The position numbers and the translations under genes are program-made. The notes beneath the pieces were generated by a model that had not been told where the DNA came from, searched no databases, and worked only from the letters and a program-made list of their open reading frames with translations. DNA of 64,000 nucleotides from Sipunculus nudus (lineage: Eukaryota; Annelida; Sipuncula; Golfingiida; Sipunculidae): the NCBI GenBank assembly GCA_026874595.1, contig CM049317.1:32226901-32290900 (forward strand), read 5' to 3'. Below are positions 17,798 through 30,340 of this stretch, piece after piece; the first letter of the stretch is position 1, and every line of letters begins with the position of its first letter.

Positions 17798-17877
17798 TCA
17801 TCTGGTGCAAATGAAAGATCGGCTTATAAGTAAATCTATGCAATGGACAAGATATTCGTTGTCGCGGTTCAACCCTT

Positions 17878-17911
<34 letters not shown>

Positions 17912-17937
17912 CATAATTTAAAAGCAACTGAAGACAG

Positions 17938-17980
<43 letters not shown>

Positions 17981-18397
17981 TAGTGTACGTTTCTTTTTTA
18001 TATATTATATCACTGTATTACATTCCTCAGACATCATCAGATACAGTAAAAAAGTGTTATCTTAGGTATAATGATCAGTTGATTTAATTGTAATTGTTCA
18101 TGGTAAAATATTACATTTAATTATTCTTACACAATACAAAATGTTATGTCATGTATAACACAGCTAATAATACAATATAAGTGCTTTCTTCTGGTAATTA
18201 TTAGATAAGAGTACAAATGGACCCGTTCATTGAATACGGGTAAGACCTTTCATACATGTGTACCTTTGATGTACGAGTTCCCATAAATACATTAACATAT
18301 CGATAGTTCTTAACCTGATATGTCGTTTTATGCATGATGTGTTGGAATTGCGAACCATCATCTCTATTCCTCTCTATTGGTTCAAGGCCATTGATTT

Positions 18398-18458
<61 letters not shown>

Positions 18459-19344
18459 GTTTATTATATTTTTTAGATTCAACATTAATTGAAGCACTTC
18501 TTACATTAATGGGAGAATGTTGGCACCTTGACTACCACCATTTACAGAGGTATGCCTTAAGTACTAATTTGAGTGGTTGATAGTAGAGAGCTGAAATATT
18601 ATATCATAATTCCCCAAGTGTGCAAAAGTCTTTGGTGTAAAATGTATTTCCCTCAATTGTTATTTTTCCATCAATACTTCCACTTGTCAACTACCTTAAA
18701 ATTCTACTTGATATATTAAGAGTATGACTTTTAATTTTGTGTTTATAATTAAAATGCGATCAATTGCAACAATGAATATCAGATAACCACAATTTTGAAT
18801 AAAACACAATCTGCACCGAGTATAGGCAACAAAAAAAATCTCATTTAAATATTGTAGATTTAATGCATGGCAAATGGTTGTTTTTAAAATGATGTTCAAT
18901 AAAGCGTTTATTTTCTCCGTATAAAGAACAAGAATTTTCCCCAACTTTATCAAACCAAACTAGCGCCCATCGTTTCATAGGCCTATCCCTTACCAGAAAT
19001 GAAGCAAACTCAGGCAAAGGGAAATAAGAAGGGTAACTTGCATCTAAAAGATAGTCTAATCTCAATCCCCATAACCTCTGAGTCGGCTTTTTATACATAC
19101 TTGCAAATTGTTCAAATTTCCTGGAAGGGGTCATGTCAAAACACTATGTCTTTCTAGAAGAAATAAAAGTGTATCTTTATACAGAAATGTACATTATAAC
19201 CTTAATACAAATCTTTGAAAGTGCTTAGCATGAACATTTACAATTAGATCAACTGATCATTATACCTAAGAAAACACTTTTACTGTATCTGATGATGTCT
19301 AAGGAATGTAATACAGTGATTTAATATATAAAAAGAAACGTATA

Positions 19345-19384
<40 letters not shown>

Positions 19385-19509
19385 CTGTCTACAGTTGCTT
19401 TTAAATTATGTTATATTTAATATATATAAAGGGTTGTACCGCGACAACGAATATCTTGTCCATTTCATAGACTTAACTTATAAGCCGATTATTCATTTGC
19501 ACCAGATGA
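17798..19509. mobile_element. Foldback-type element with ~300-bp inverted arms
   Basis: The left arm (17798-18102) and right arm (19229-19509) are inverted copies of each other. The outer ends read 'tcatctggtgcaaatga' at left and its complement at right. Both arms then share 'cggcttataagt', 'atggacaagatattcgttg', 'tcgcgg-acaaccctttatat', 'cataatttaaaagcaactg', an (AT)n tract of different length in each arm, 'aagaaacgt', 'ctgtattacattcct', 'gacatcatcagatacagta', and 'ataatgatcagttga-t'. The inner ends are at 'gttcatg'. The loop of about 1.1 kb contains a third (AT)n tract (about 18404-18458) and a 97-codon minus-strand frame at 18841-19134 that I do not recognise. No transposase is visible, so it would be non-autonomous. 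The arms could fold into a long cruciform or hairpin RNA. No clear target-site duplication was found at the outer ends. Confidence 0.75.
18841..19134 (-). CDS. Unrecognised 97-codon frame inside the foldback loop
   Basis: This minus-strand frame has a balanced, protein-like composition in its first 65 codons (for example RLWGLRLDYLLDASYPSYF and RDRPMKRWALVWFDKVGE), then turns AT-biased. Nothing upstream on the minus strand supports a promoter or start context. It may be a captured exon or a fragment of a lost transposase. I do not recognise the family and would not claim a function. Confidence 0.25.
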   Translation of the reverse strand: MTPSRKFEQFASMYKKPTQRLWGLRLDYLLDASYPSYFPLPEFASFLVRDRPMKRWALVWFDKVGENSCSLYGENKRFIEHHFKNNHLPCIKSTIFK

Positions 19510-23250: not shown

Positions 23251-23268
23251 TGACAATTTTACAAGATA
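23251..23268 (+). repeat. 18-bp direct repeat, left flank of the 2.04-kb unit
   Basis: The sequence tgacaattttacaagata occurs here and again at 25305-25322, exactly bounding copy 1 of the large repeat. Perfect over 18 bp, it has the form of a target-site duplication. Confidence 0.85.
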
Positions 23269-25304
23269 ATCCCTAACTGTGATACCCTGTAAATTCCTAT
23301 GACCACACGAGAGTATGAAGGTTATGATATCATAGGATATTCGAAAAAAAAAATTACCAGCAATGCTTTCAATTTCTCCTCCAGCTATTGAACGGCAGAC
23401 CTTTTGTTTCGGCGTGTTGTCATAAGCTAATGCCTTCCGTGCTGGACAATGTATTTCAATGTATAAGAAACAGCTTCCTTAAATAGAAACATTATTTGTT
23501 TAGACCCCTGGACAAAGTAGGGTCTTTAAAGAAAACTAGATGTATCATGAATTATGGCATGTCTAACAGCTTTAGGTGTTGCCCTCCGATTAAATAAAAG
23601 CAACTCTCAAAATTGACTGCAACATTTCTATAGGACTGGTTCAATCAGGTGGTTATGTTGCGTGGAGAGGGATATAGGTAAGGATTATGGACATTACTTA
23701 ACTTTTATAATATAACTGAAAGCCTTGTTGTTACACCACACACGCAACGGTCATATTTTGTGTATATTTTTGTATTGAGTAACTTATTTAACTTTCCTAG
23801 ATGAAGAACGATATATAAAATATCGATGCAAGTGTTCGCTTTTCAGGTGTAACATTTTATATTCAATATCAATGCCAAATGTTAAAATAGGTTTCAATTG
23901 ACAACAACAAGATAGTTTGAAGCTCTCGTCAAATGCGGCTCTTACATATTTCCAGGCTTGGGTATCCAATAAACAATAAACTTGCTCTACTCTACTCGAA
24001 ACCTTCGATGATATGATGCTTATTAATGACATTGCCATCGGGTTTTATATTACAAAATTAATAACTACTCGTACCACGGATAGCCATATTCCAGGAGGCA
24101 TCGGTATGAAAATTCTGGCCAGACAAATTGACAAACATCGTCCACCAAACCTTGCGGTTTTAAAGGTACATCGAAAGCTCACAACACGAAGTTGAAGGTA
24201 TCTGCAAAACTGCTGAAGAAACACAATAATGACAGTCGAACTTCTTGCAGCGCATTTGTGAGTTGTTGACACTCCGCACTTACTGTCCGTTTGAGCATAC
24301 TTTTTTTGTGTTAGCACATAAATTCCCCAACATTATTTTGTTAAGGCGCCTTTATTTAAAGTAGCTAGGTAATATAAGAAAATCTGTATTATCAAATGGC
24401 CAATTGACAAAAAAAGCCACTGTGGAATACGAATTCCCCACCTTGAACAAATGTATTGGACATGACTGATGTGATTAGAGGAGGGTCAGTGAATAGTAGA
24501 ACGCCTTTAAACAACAAAATGAAGCCGTCAAAAAGTTTTAGCTTTTGAGAGGACCGCTTTGATGAACATATAGGACTTACAATGCGCCGCAAATAAGTAC
24601 ATGCTCCAGGAAGGCAGTCTCAGCGATACTCTGCAGTTTTCTCACGCGTTTTGTATGTAAGAAGAGCTCTACAATTGACGCAAATTTATCAGTTCATCCC
24701 TTGTCAGCAAAATTGTTGAGTCATGTGTCATTATGTATTCCAAAATATCTCATTTTTTTTTTACTTTTTGAAAATGGCCACCAGGGGGCATGGTACGTGA
24801 AACACTGTAACATATCATTTTTCTGATGTCTCTAAAATATTAAACATGTTATAATTTTTATTGTCTTATCTGAAACTAGGATCATCGGCTTATTCGTGAG
24901 CACATGTGGTATTGTGATGCCGTTACCACGGTTACGTAATTTTCGGGGTAAAACTTGACAATCTGAAAATATTAAGTTGTTTTTGCTTCTATCTCTGTTA
25001 ATATTTATGCTACAATGGAGCTACTTTTCCAAGAGGTAATATTCCCTTTGTTCTATGACATTAAATTGCATTTCTTGAAAAATCACGCTCGGTTTGCCGT
25101 CAAGCGAGAACTAGCAAGATCTCGCCGAAATACTTATAACTCGATCACGTTATAGGCAAAATAGGAGTAGTTTTCAGCACTTGTAACATTTCGGAAGCAT
25201 AACATGTTAAAACCGCAAATCTCGCTTCAGCAAGTATCAACGCGAATATTCGAGATTTTAAAAATTGACGTATATCTTGTTCATTTTAATTCTATAGATG
25301 TATA
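23269..25304. mobile_element. 2.04-kb repeat unit, copy 1, with 18-bp flanking duplication
   Basis: It begins 'atccctaactgtgatacc' and ends 'tctatagatgtata'. Copy 2 (26176-28212) matches it end to end in the same orientation; by eye I count about 25 substitutions and small indels, so identity is near 98-99%. No terminal inverted repeats, LTRs, poly-A tail or recognisable protein domain. Minus-strand frames of 60-90 codons (for example 24045-24317 and 23784-24038, in one frame with a single stop between them) are conserved in both copies, but recent copying alone would explain that. Both copies carry a CTCF-like CCACCAGGGGGC (24778-24789 here). The 18-bp flanking repeat suggests insertion, possibly LINE-mediated. 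Function and class unknown. Confidence 0.8.
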
Positions 25305-25322
25305 TGACAATTTTACAAGATA
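25305..25322 (+). repeat. 18-bp direct repeat, right flank of the 2.04-kb unit
   Basis: Second copy of tgacaattttacaagata, directly after the end of copy 1 of the 2.04-kb repeat. Confidence 0.85.
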
Positions 25323-26175
25323 TTAAATCCAAAACTGTGGAGAAATGAATAAACAGTTTCATTATTTAAATGAATGTCTGACATGTAGAGTTTCTCTGCT
25401 ACCTGTCTTAACATAATAAAAAAAAGATCTGGACATCTTCCACTTGGAAGAGTTGTCAGAGGAAACTGGTATTAGAAACCACCTGATTAAAATATCTCAG
25501 AAGTTTTTTTTGTTCAGGGAGATGACTGGGATATTACAAAGAGGAAACGCCGTCTAAATATTGAAAGGTGATTATTAAATAGTACTCAAATCACCTCATC
25601 TGATTTGCCAAGAACAAGCCAAGTTACCAAAACAATAAGACACATACCACGATTTAGAAAAAAAAATGTTAATAGTGTCTTATATGAAGTGAAAATAGTT
25701 GGAAAGGTCATTTTGGCTGAAGAAATGAACAGGATTAATACATTTGATAACTTTCTCGAGTAGAGCTGTGGTATTTTTGGAGATGCATATAAGTGTTTAC
25801 CCCTTGTCTTAATAAGAAGCTTAGTACCAGAACAGTTCCCGAGATAATCTTGTAAGTTATAGATAGTTTTCCTTCTAAATTTCAAATATATTCGGCGAAA
25901 TTTCACATATCAGTATAATGCAGGTTAAATTATCCTGTGTCCAACTGAGTCAGCTAGGCCTCTAGGGAAAATGAAACTGAAATCTGCAGTCCCGTTACAA
26001 ACCCCATATGCTGATGGAATCAATACGAGTTGTACTTGGTTCCACTGTTACTGCAACAGCAAATCCATTTCCAGATCAAAATAATTTACCTACTGTACGA
26101 GGAACAGCCTCATGATACATTCCGTTTCTGGTCACGACAGCCAAAGTTGGACAAATTTTTGCTGAAAACTTCAAA
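25323..26175. other. Spacer between the two 2.04-kb copies
   Basis: About 850 bases not shared with either copy. It has a 106-codon minus-strand frame (25586-25906) with a hydrophobic C-terminal half and no motif I can name. No repeat structure seen. Confidence 0.5.
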
Positions 26176-28212
26176 ATCCCTAACTGTGATACCCTGTAAA
26201 TTCCTATGACCACACGAGAGTATGAAGGTTATGATATCATAGGATATTCGAAAAAAAAAATTACCAGCAATGCTTTCAATTTCTCATCCAGCTATTGAAC
26301 GGCAGACCTTTTGTTTCGGCGTGTTGTCATAAGCTAATTCCTTCCGTGCTCGACAATGTATTTCAATGTATAAGAAACAGCTTCCTTAATTAGAAACATT
26401 ATTTGTTTAGACCCCTGGACAAAGTAGGGTCTTAAAGAAAACTAGATGTATCATGAATTATGGCATGTCTAACAGCTTTAGGTTTTGCCCTCCGATTAAA
26501 TAAAAGCAACTCTCTCAAAATAAACTGCAACATTTCTATAGGACTGGTTCAATCAGGTGGTTATGTTGCGTGGAGAGGGATATAGGTAAGGATTATGGAC
26601 ATTACTTAACTTTTATAATATAACTGAAAGCCTTGTTGTTACACCACACACGCAACGGTCATATTTTGTGTATATTTTTGTACTGAGTAACTTATTTAAC
26701 TTTCCTAGATAAAGAACGATATATAAAATATCGATGCAAGTGTTCGCTTTTCAGGTGTAACATTTTATATTCAATATCAATGCTAAATGTTAAAATAGGT
26801 TTCAATTGACAACAACAAGATTGTTTGAAGCTCTCGTCAAATGTGGCTCTTACATATTTCCAGGCTTGGGTATCCAATAAACTATAAACTTGCTCTACTC
26901 TACTCGAAACCTTCGATGATATGATGCTTATTAATGACATTGCCATCGGTTTTTATATTACAAAATTAATAACTACTCGTACCACGGATAGCCATATTCC
27001 AGGAGGCATCGGTATGAAAATTCTGGCCAGACAAATTGACAAACATCGTCCACCAAACCTTGCGGTTTTAAAGGTACATCGAAAGCTCACAACACGAAGT
27101 TGAAGGTATCTGCAAAACTGCTGAAGAAACACAATAATGACAGTCGAACTTCTTGCAGCGCATTTGTGAGTTGTTGACACTCCGCACTTACTGTCCGTTT
27201 GAGCATACTTTGTTTGTGTTAGCACATAAATTCCCCAACATTATTTTGTTAAGGCGCCTTTATTTAAAGTAGCTAGGTAATATAAGAAAATCTGTATTAT
27301 CAAATGGCCAATTGACAAAAAAAGCCACTGTGGAATACGAATTCCCCACCTTGAACAAATGTATTGGACATGACTGATGTGATTAGAGGAGGGTCAGTGA
27401 ATAGTAGAACGCCTTTAAACAACAAAATGAAGCCGTCAAAAAGTTTTAGCTTTTGAGAGGACCGCTTTGATGAACATATAGGACTTACAATGCGCCGCAA
27501 ATAAGTACATGCTCCAGGAAGGCAGTCTCAGCGATACTCTGCAGTTTTCTCACGCGTTTTGTATGTAAGAAGAGCTCTACAATTGACGCAAATTTATCAG
27601 TTCATCCCTTGTCAGCAAAATCGTTGAGCCATGTGTCATTATGTATTCCAAAATATCTCATTTTTTTTTTACTTTTTGAAAATGGCCACCAGGGGGCATG
27701 GTACGTGAAACACTGTAACATATCATTTTTCTGATGTCTCTAAAATATTAAACATGTTATAATTTTTATTGTCTTATCTGAAACTAGGATCATCGGCTTA
27801 TTCGTGAGCACATGTGGTATTGTGATGCCGTTACCACGGTTACGTAATTTTCGGGGTAAAACTTGACAATCTGAAAATATTAAGTTGTTTTTGCTTCTAT
27901 CTCTGTTAATATTAATGCTACAATGGAGCTACTTTTCCAAGAGGTAATATTCCCTTTGTTCTATGACATTAAATTGCATGTCATGAAAAATCACGCTCGG
28001 TTTGCCGTCAAGCGAGAACTAACAAGATCTCGCCGAAATACTTATAACTCGATCACGTTATAGGCAAAATAGGAGTAGTTTTCAGCACTTGTAACATTTC
28101 GGAAGCATAACATGTTAAAACCGCAAATCTCGCTTCAGCAAGTATCAACGCGAATATTCGAGATTTTAAAAATTGACGTATATCTTGTTCATTTTAATTC
28201 TATAGATGTATA
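26176..28212. mobile_element. 2.04-kb repeat unit, copy 2
   Basis: Same start and end as copy 1, same orientation. Unlike copy 1, its 3' end continues into a further, diverged copy of the terminal block (28213-28440), and no matching flanking direct repeat is visible. Copy 2 is thus the better candidate for the older or source locus. The CTCF-like CCACCAGGGGGC is preserved at about 27686-27697. Confidence 0.8.
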
Positions 28213-28440
28213 TTTTTTATTGCTCATGATTCATTTAAATAGTTTTAAGTGACATGCGTGTATATCTCATCATACCTCGCATCGTTTGTCGTCAAACGAG
28301 AAAATGAAACCTTTTGAACAAATGCCTATAATTCCGTCATTTTCACGCTATAGACATATAGTTTTCAGCATTTGACAGCGCCTGACACTCTCAGTCACAT
28401 TTTGTGATTATATTGCAATTCTCGTCAAATGACACACTGT
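28213..28440 (+). repeat. Diverged extra copy of the 3' terminal block of the 2.04-kb unit
   Basis: Blocks such as 'gtcgtcaaacgagaa', 'cctataattccgtca-ttttcacgctatagac' and 'agttttcagcatttga' parallel 'gccgtcaagcgagaa', 'cttataactcgatcacgttataggc' and 'agttttcagcacttgt' in the last 250 bases of the unit. The element therefore seems to end in a tandemly repeatable block. Confidence 0.65.
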
Positions 28441-28837
28441 TTTCACATCATCCGGTGTTTACTTGTTGGAAAGGCAGGTGGAAGTAAAAAATATTAGGAT
28501 CTTTTATTATTCCCGATCTTTATTCAGGTAGAAATTGTCAATAACATTCTGTATTTCTTTCTTTTTTTAATTTCTTAAGATTCCACTTCATTTGGCAAAA
28601 TGCAATAGAAGGGAAATCTTATTAACTTAAGAAAGAAAAACAATCAACCCTAGAGGATGCACGAAGAAAGATTTTGTTCCAAAAGGACTAAAAGTTATAA
28701 ATCCATTGACGAATGTCTACAAGACACACTATAGTGTCGTAGACTTTCCAAAGTGAGCAGTATGTACTGGTTAAAATGGTTCAGATGGCAACAGAGCCGG
28801 ACATATATAATTTACTTTGGATCGAAAGGCAAGTCAC

Positions 28838-28838
<1 letters not shown>
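28441..28838. other. Intergenic, no feature seen
   Basis: No recognisable gene or repeat between the extra terminal block and the next microsatellite. Confidence 0.5.
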
Positions 28839-28908
<70 letters not shown>

Positions 28909-28918
28909 TATATACATA
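28839..28918. repeat. (AT)n microsatellite with CATATA interruptions
   Basis: About 75 bases of alternating A/T. The long open frames on both strands across 28753-29094 are created by this tract and the TRIM that follows. Confidence 0.95.
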
Positions 28919-28939
28919 TGGCCAGGGGAGTATTCACAT

Positions 28940-29096
28940 TGTTACGGGGTGACATAAAAGCGGACCGAACTGTCTCGCTAGTGAAGCTTGCCTTTCTAGC
29001 GAAGCGGTTGGTTCGCCGGACTTGGGCGCCACCGACCTGGGTTCGACTCCCGGATCGGCTCAGGATTCTTCCCCTCAACAATTTGTCTTCGTAACA
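28940..29096 (+). repeat. TRIM 5' LTR with tRNA-like segment
   Basis: The tRNA-like part (about 28994-29060) has a box A 'tagcgaagcgg' whose GCGA and TCGC form a 4-bp D stem around an 'agcggttggt' loop. Its box B 'gggttcgactcc' is closed by a CTGGG/CCCGG T stem. Acceptor and anticodon stems are not intact. LTR 2 differs at roughly 20 positions. Confidence 0.75.
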
Positions 29097-29215
29097 AAAT
29101 TGGGGCTCGTCAAACGTGACAGTTAACTTTGTGGCCCAGGGAACAAGCTCACGAAAGTGTGACTCCTGGGATAATTGGTCTTATTCTGATAGCAGAACGC
29201 TCTTAAGAGGGGGTG

Positions 29216-29371
29216 TGTTACGGGGTGACATATAAGCGGACCGAACTGTTTCGCTAATGAAGCTTGCTTTTTTAGCGAAGCGGTTGGTACGCCGGACTTG
29301 TGCGCCACCGACCTCGGTTCGACTCCCGGATCGGCCCAGGATTTTCCCCTCATTTATTTATCTCCGTAACA
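29216..29371 (+). repeat. TRIM 3' LTR with tRNA-like segment
   Basis: It parallels LTR 1 from TGTTACGGGG to CCGTAACA. Box A 'tagcgaagcggttggtacgcc' and box B 'cggttcgactcc' are both kept, including the D-stem and T-stem bases. Confidence 0.75.
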
Positions 29372-29379
29372 ACATATAA

Positions 29380-30340
29380 GAATCAAATATTATATATGAG
29401 GTGGCAAGGGGATTATTCACATATGAAAAGGACCTACAGTTTCGACTCCCCATATAAATTACCGTGAACTACAGTTTGGACTGCCCAAAATAATTACAAA
29501 TATAATTTAAAATATTTCTGATTCTAAATAATAATTGCATGGATTCCCATGAATGTTGTCTTGAATAGTGAACATCACTAGTTTTATCAGTTACCAAAAA
29601 CTGGTGGCACCACCTGTAGTTAATTTTATTATAGACCCATTTTTCTCCAAATGTTGAGCTCAGAAGCAAAAGTGTCAGTTTCTCAGATATGTTCTGATAT
29701 CTCTTTTCTATAGACACAGTTGCGGCTTTCAATTGAACTCTTTCACTTATTCTTACTCATTAATGCACATTTTGTTATACATTTCAGTGGAGGTGGAATT
29801 TCGAATCCCCGCTATACACACCCAGGCCTTTTAAAAGATGTATGCCATATGTGTACTTTAGTCTGTATGATGATAAAAAGGTGATATGTGATAGATTTGG
29901 AAGTTCTCAGACCTACTAGTGTTAACAGGGTGGGCAATGTCGAGGATATGCTAGACGGGGCATCCTATTGGCGCGTTATGGACATTAACGCAATATTAAC
30001 CAGAAACATATTTCGTCTATTGGAAGCTGTTTTCAACTGAACTTTCCTACCCCTATCATCTTTAATTTTTATAATTTATTTCGTTATTTTGTTTTTATTC
30101 TATAATAGTATTATTAATTATATATTTCCTTAGTAAGAACGATATTGTGTTATTTTACTAAAATAAAACTAGTGTACTATTGCGTACCTCACACACATAC
30201 GTAAGTATATATATATAATTTTTATCCATAGTTGTAGCTTAACCACATGCAAACTGTTATGCTTTTTATAAAATCTCTAATCATGTGGTCAAAATTTGAT
30301 GCTGAGCCAAATGACTTCAATAACGTCAAATGACGGATAA
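29380..30340. other. Intergenic, no gene seen
   Basis: AT-rich; frames such as 29469-29732 have no motif. A short degenerate copy of the TRIM's left flank lies at about 29402-29421. Confidence 0.5.

Follow-up and report, generated by a model that had tools for sequence, protein, structure and literature searches.

The window analysed here is a 64,000-nucleotide stretch of the genome of Sipunculus nudus, which NCBI places in Annelida, Sipuncula; a first-pass annotation had implied a mollusc host. Positions 28940-29371 of the window are occupied by a non-coding LTR element of 432 bp, with the following features and borders (coordinates, strand, feature, basis).

28936-28939, unstranded: left target-site duplication ACAT, 4 bp (letters; 31/45 exact in the family)
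28940-29096, plus: 5' LTR, 157 bp, TGTTACGG...CGTAACA (direct-repeat comparison)
28954-28960, plus: TATA-like ATAAAAG of the 5' LTR (letters; putative role)
28960-29016, unstranded: imperfect inverted repeat across box A (69% here, 76% in the 3' LTR)
28997-29007, plus: box A of the 5' LTR, TAGCGAAGCGG (motif and shuffle test)
29040-29050, plus: box B of the 5' LTR, GGTTCGACTCC (motif and shuffle test)
29066-29070, plus: TTCTT of the 5' LTR, TTTT in most family LTRs; possible pol III stop, interrupted here
29100-29111, plus: primer-binding site (PBS) TTGGGGCTCGTC, 11/12 letters of the tRNA-Pro 3'-end complement
29205-29213, plus: polypurine tract (PPT) AAGAGGGGG (letters; purine run of at least 8 in 88/93 of the family)
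29216-29371, plus: 3' LTR, 156 bp (direct-repeat comparison)
29231-29236, plus: TATA-like TATAAG of the 3' LTR (letters; putative role)
29273-29283, plus: box A of the 3' LTR, TAGCGAAGCGG (motif and shuffle test)
29316-29326, plus: box B of the 3' LTR, GGTTCGACTCC (motif and shuffle test)
29342-29345, plus: TTTT, 15 nt past box B of the 3' LTR; possible pol III stop (letters)
29372-29375, unstranded: right target-site duplication ACAT, 4 bp (letters)

The two LTRs (28940-29096 and 29216-29371) are direct repeats with 90% identity and TG/CA termini (TGTTACGG at the start, CGTAACA at the end). They enclose a 119-bp internal region in which AAA comes first, followed by the 12-nt primer site, and AAGAGGGGG-TG comes last, adjoining the 3' LTR. 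The pair of ~157-bp LTRs with TG/CA ends and the 4-bp flanking repeat described in the first-pass annotation were confirmed (157 and 156 bp, ACAT), and its classification of the element as a TRIM is upheld by the LTRs, the primer site, the purine tract, the 4-bp duplications and the lack of coding capacity. A stop-to-stop frame of 122 aa on the minus strand (28812-29180) runs over the 5' LTR and a TA repeat and is read as a chance frame. The 21-bp flank at 28919-28939 is repeated with 90% identity on the other side of the element, at 29402-29422, so that insertion was probably into a locally duplicated sequence.

Elsewhere in the window, a direct repeat of 2.04 kb (23268-25305 and 26175-28213) has 98.8% identity, its first copy being bordered by a repeat of ~16 bp (ACAATTTTACAAGATA), as after retroposition, and an inverted repeat of ~300 bp (17798-18106 and 19225-19509) has 87% identity. 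Pfam searches with four frames of the window gave 0 matches each. In the wider genome, of 63 scored tRNA matches 46 fall in one array on chromosome C9 (C9:40605435-40699894), many of them ~1.67 kb apart, and runs of tRNA-Pro-type 3' ends a few kb apart occur at C5:41589675-41807380 and C14:19081324-19319681. Numerous tyrosinase exon matches lie on a single chromosome (C16:39305214-60479726), as in an expanded gene family, and no evident hemocyanin array emerged from the tyrosinase search.

The primer site TTGGGGCTCGTC begins 3 nt past the 5' LTR and is one letter off the 12-mer TGGGGGCTCGTC. A search of the genome with a tRNA-Pro-type 3' end pattern gave 102 matches (74 + 28), and most of the matches listed terminate in CCCGGACGAGCC; the complement of CCCGGACGAGCC extended by a discriminator C and CCA is what we take the 12-mer TGGGGGCTCGTC to be. 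Among 93 internal regions of the family, the 12-mer was found exactly in 57, with one mismatch in 26 and with two to four mismatches in 10, and 51 of the 57 exact sites begin 3 nt past the LTR end. A purine run of at least 8 (longest run counted) lies near the 3' end of 88/93 internal regions. Both the resemblance to the proline-tRNA complement and the polypurine tract remarked on at first pass were thereby borne out. Integrase trims letters from cDNA ends, and such trimming here would account for the 3 extra nt ahead of the PBS and the 2 that follow the PPT. When the sampled loci were scanned for Pro-type PBS that do not belong to the family, three places came up: two proved to be copies of the family and the third looks like a chance match.

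The element is a member of a large family with thousands of related segments. The 432-bp query gave at least 53 matches in the S. nudus genome from the best 40 of 2,850 candidates. Allowing up to 3 mismatches, a 26-nt internal segment has 2,473 matches genome-wide and a 26-nt segment of the T-arm has 2,601, against 0 in the reversed-pattern control of each. With two LTRs per internal region, a ratio of internal to T-arm matches of ~1:2 is predicted, whereas ~1:1 was observed; the CpG-rich T-arm may have decayed faster, or some internal regions may have other LTRs beside them. A search with the start of the LTR in IMG/VR produced three candidate contigs, which were dropped because they had a 17-mer alone in common with the query and no BLAST match to the LTR or the internal region.

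Arrays were delimited in 77 best-scoring loci, partly overlapping and not a random sample, which yielded 60 distinct LTR-internal-LTR arrays; arrays that do not both start and stop with an LTR, the 15/60 arrays with incomplete ends and 17/134 incomplete LTR units were left out where complete ends or LTRs were required. A 4-bp duplication flanks 31 of the 45 complete-ended arrays exactly and 38 of the 45 with at most one mismatch, against exact 4-bp matches in 125/1980 (6.3%) of mispaired flanks from different copies; a 5-bp duplication was found in 0/45. The duplications are A/T-rich, with ATAT accounting for 9/31. Three to five LTRs are present in 11/60 arrays, eight of which have complete ends and four of these eight an exact duplication. 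Among 30 loci found with the LTR as sole query, three were script-called solo LTRs, two of them clean, and both clean ones lie between 4-bp duplications and lack an A tail.

These copies bear on a reading of the locus as a pair of adjacent tRNA-derived SINEs with the look of LTRs, a reading which would account for a unit with boxes A and B and roughly the length of a SINE. The duplications have a fixed length of 4 bp in 31/45 arrays, the PBS and PPT sit at the same place in most of the 93 internal regions, the ends are TG/CA, and the two clean solo LTRs carry 4-bp duplications in place of A tails. Single units with longer, variable duplications and an A-rich or LINE-type tail, which would mark tRNA-derived SINEs, were not found in the sampled loci. 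On the strength of the 4-bp duplications, PBS and PPT we rejected two adjacent SINEs as exceedingly improbable. The first-pass annotation had proposed to judge its call by whether other copies keep LTR, PBS and PPT with short duplications or are lone ~157-bp units with A-rich tails and long duplications, and the sampled copies are of the former kind.

Divergence within LTR pairs ranges from 0.006 to 0.155 in 71 copies, with a median of 0.084 and a value of 0.09 for the copy in the window; it is below 0.05 in 12/71, so most copies are old and a few are young. The median difference of 5' LTRs between copies is 0.090. In variants such as L072, L084, L093, L069 and L075, several LTRs lack ~23 nt of the inverted-repeat stretch before box A, with box A kept, and in some pairs this applies to a single LTR. 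An autonomous relative, for which a search had been suggested at first pass, was not seen among 30 loci found with the internal region (40 scored of 788 candidates, ranked by likeness to the element): in all 30 the internal region has a family LTR next to it on one side or both, and this likeness-ranked sample thus contains no visible helper. In one of the 30, L076, the 3' LTR lies ~800 bp from the internal region.

Within each LTR, box A (TAGCGAAGCGG) and box B (GGTTCGACTCC) are separated by 43 nt from start to start, a tRNA-like spacing. When each LTR was dinucleotide-shuffled 20,000 times, a strict box pair arose in 0 shuffles and loose pairs in 5 and 3 for the two LTRs, and the rest of the 64-kb window, both strands included and the element excluded, contains one loose pair with a spacing of 64. 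Judged by these counts, the occurrence of boxes A and B inside the LTR is beyond chance. The D-arm with box A and T-arm with box B reported at first pass thus stand as motifs at tRNA-like spacing. Rfam gave no tRNA match at E<=10 across 601 bp around the element, where 5S rRNA was likewise absent from the 19 matches at that threshold, and for 20 other family loci it gave no tRNA at E<=1 but four weak tmRNA matches in or near the element. ARAGORN, run with the bacterial code, found no tRNA in the window or in 42 loci. Folding was no better than in shuffles for three of four segments and weakly better for one (z -1.78). A full tRNA in the LTR was set aside, as neither the Rfam nor the ARAGORN searches support it.

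Across 117 complete LTRs of the family, box A was found by motif in 92, loose box B in 91 and both in order in 73, and 69 of these 73 pairs have one single spacing. Of at least 108 LTRs, 87 have a TATA-like motif 44 nt ahead of box A, and a run of four T (T4) lies 15 nt past box B in 93 of the 103 LTRs in which box B is strict. The succession of TATA-like motif, box A, box B and T4 is that of a tRNA-type pol III gene. Among 19 LTRs that are shortened or diverged, 10 have no box B by motif. Among the 71 paired copies, T4 is present in 62 5' LTRs and 58 3' LTRs, and its frequency in the 5' LTRs means that a full-length RNA made by pol III would need read-through. Internal regions are free of T4 in 67/71 copies, which carries no weight as evidence because 66% of shuffles also lack T4.

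Conservation of the boxes across the family does not exceed that of the other LTR positions, the mean majority share being 0.946 for box A, 0.931 for box B and 0.909-0.936 for the rest. This speaks for a TRIM of the ordinary, pol II-transcribed sort, whose box-like letters would have been left behind, without function, by a SINE or tRNA gene inserted into an ancestral LTR; in such an element the TATA-like motif near LTR position 15-21 could serve pol II, and the T4 of the 5' LTR would stand in the way of pol III. Nevertheless, of the 12 least-diverged pairs (<0.05), 9 retain the two boxes in their 5' LTR and 12 retain T4 after box B, and boxes and T4 are spaced as in a functional tRNA gene. 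Helenus-like layouts are also known from several phyla: Helenus comprises the TRIMs with tRNA-like LTRs described by Kojima 2024, in the parts of that paper available here (PMC10886601). We consider inert boxes unlikely on balance.

The preferred reading draws on the LTR-PBS-PPT-LTR order, the 4-bp duplications, the thousands of related segments and the boxes A and B, preceded by a TATA-like motif and followed by T4, all of which can be read from the sequence. According to it, with a probability of roughly 0.8, the locus holds one copy of an S. nudus TRIM family with Helenus anatomy, non-coding and with a predicted tRNA-type pol III promoter in the LTR. Pol III, perhaps together with pol II, would start near LTR position 42-47, read through the T4 of the 5' LTR some of the time and end transcription at the T4 of the 3' LTR; with such a start and stop, the repeated R region would approximate the tRNA-like segment. 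A tRNA-Pro may act as primer, reverse transcriptase and integrase would be supplied in trans by a gypsy-type element, and the tandem arrays may stem from LTR-LTR recombination or joined cDNA. With its fixed TATA-like motif, boxes and T4, the S. nudus family is a place to try the proposed pol III transcription. For annotation it is relevant that LTRs with tRNA-type boxes can pass for tRNA-derived SINEs.

In comparison with known TRIMs, biv-TRIM of bivalves is, in the excerpts of its description, also an animal TRIM with tandem arrays and solo repeats, and differs in its terminal repeats of 202-218 bp and inner domain of 77-80 bp (PMC6934838); its PPT GGGGAGA and conserved inner segment are absent from the S. 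nudus internal region. Ajax, a nemertean TRIM, has a small-RNA-type promoter in the LTR, as is predicted for S. nudus, but this promoter is 5S-derived and the duplications are of 5 bp, a length seen in 0/45 S. nudus arrays (PMC10886601, in part). The plant TRIM Cassandra, as far as its description was at hand, has a pol III promoter in the LTR, a feature predicted in S. nudus, as well as tandem LTR-internal arrays, and is transcribed from the 5' to the 3' LTR; its promoter is that of 5S rRNA, in contrast to the S. nudus element, which has no 5S match at E<=10. TRIMp3 is a TRIM with a working pol III promoter. The ant element PbTRIM is an animal TRIM that prefers TA-rich sites and has ATAT duplications, which make up 9/31 in S. 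nudus; it is not known to carry tRNA-type boxes.

Kojima 2024 was the only paper on Helenus-type elements among the literature matches listed, with Repbase outside the search, and the accessible portion of an annelid LTR paper (PMC8556966) contains nothing on TRIMs with tRNA boxes. The first-pass annotation knew of no well-described animal counterpart with tRNA-type boxes, a view overtaken when Helenus was published in 2024, with hosts among fungi, plants and animals of six phyla, bivalves included (PMC10886601, as are all further statements on Helenus, from the parts of the text available). For Helenus a SINE-LTR hybrid origin is proposed there, an idea also raised at first pass for the S. 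nudus element, and its tRNA similarity was judged with Censor and tRNAscan-SE. Animal Helenus have 4-bp duplications and are presumed to be mobilised by gypsy elements, and the bivalve families have the anatomy seen in S. nudus, 4-bp duplications and in some cases Pro primers. The S. nudus element fits a Helenus-type TRIM by anatomy, and is known here by that anatomy and not by homology to a named family. It has the same non-coding LTR-PBS-PPT-LTR layout, at 432 bp it lies within the range of 311-1263 bp, and boxes A and B are inside the LTR (both by motif in 73/117). The 4-bp duplications agree with animal Helenus, the tRNA-Pro primer with some bivalve families and the tandem arrays with LTR-11_DR.

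Most Helenus have TRGCY...YGG as box A and GGTTC as box B, and the S. nudus letters (TAGCG...CGG and GGTTC) match throughout save for the Y after TRGC. This G in place of Y, along with the several origins for which Kojima 2024 argues (PMC10886601, in part), speaks for a TRIM that gained pol III boxes independently in annelids and works like Helenus without common descent with the Helenus families. Against it, Helenus is defined by anatomy and not by descent; we give independent gain a little under an even chance. Doubtful, in our estimate, is the stronger version in which an annelid LTR family of separate origin is driven by pol III, its R region is the tRNA-like unit, and T4 leads mostly to an RNA of ~85 nt and only by read-through to full-length genome RNA; if true, one promoter would yield both a tRNA-like RNA and a retrotransposon genome. 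In its host the S. nudus family differs from the published Helenus, as Annelida is missing from host Table 1 of Kojima 2024 in the version at hand (PMC10886601). With its thousands of related segments, it extends the reported host range of TRIMs with tRNA-type boxes to Annelida/Sipuncula.
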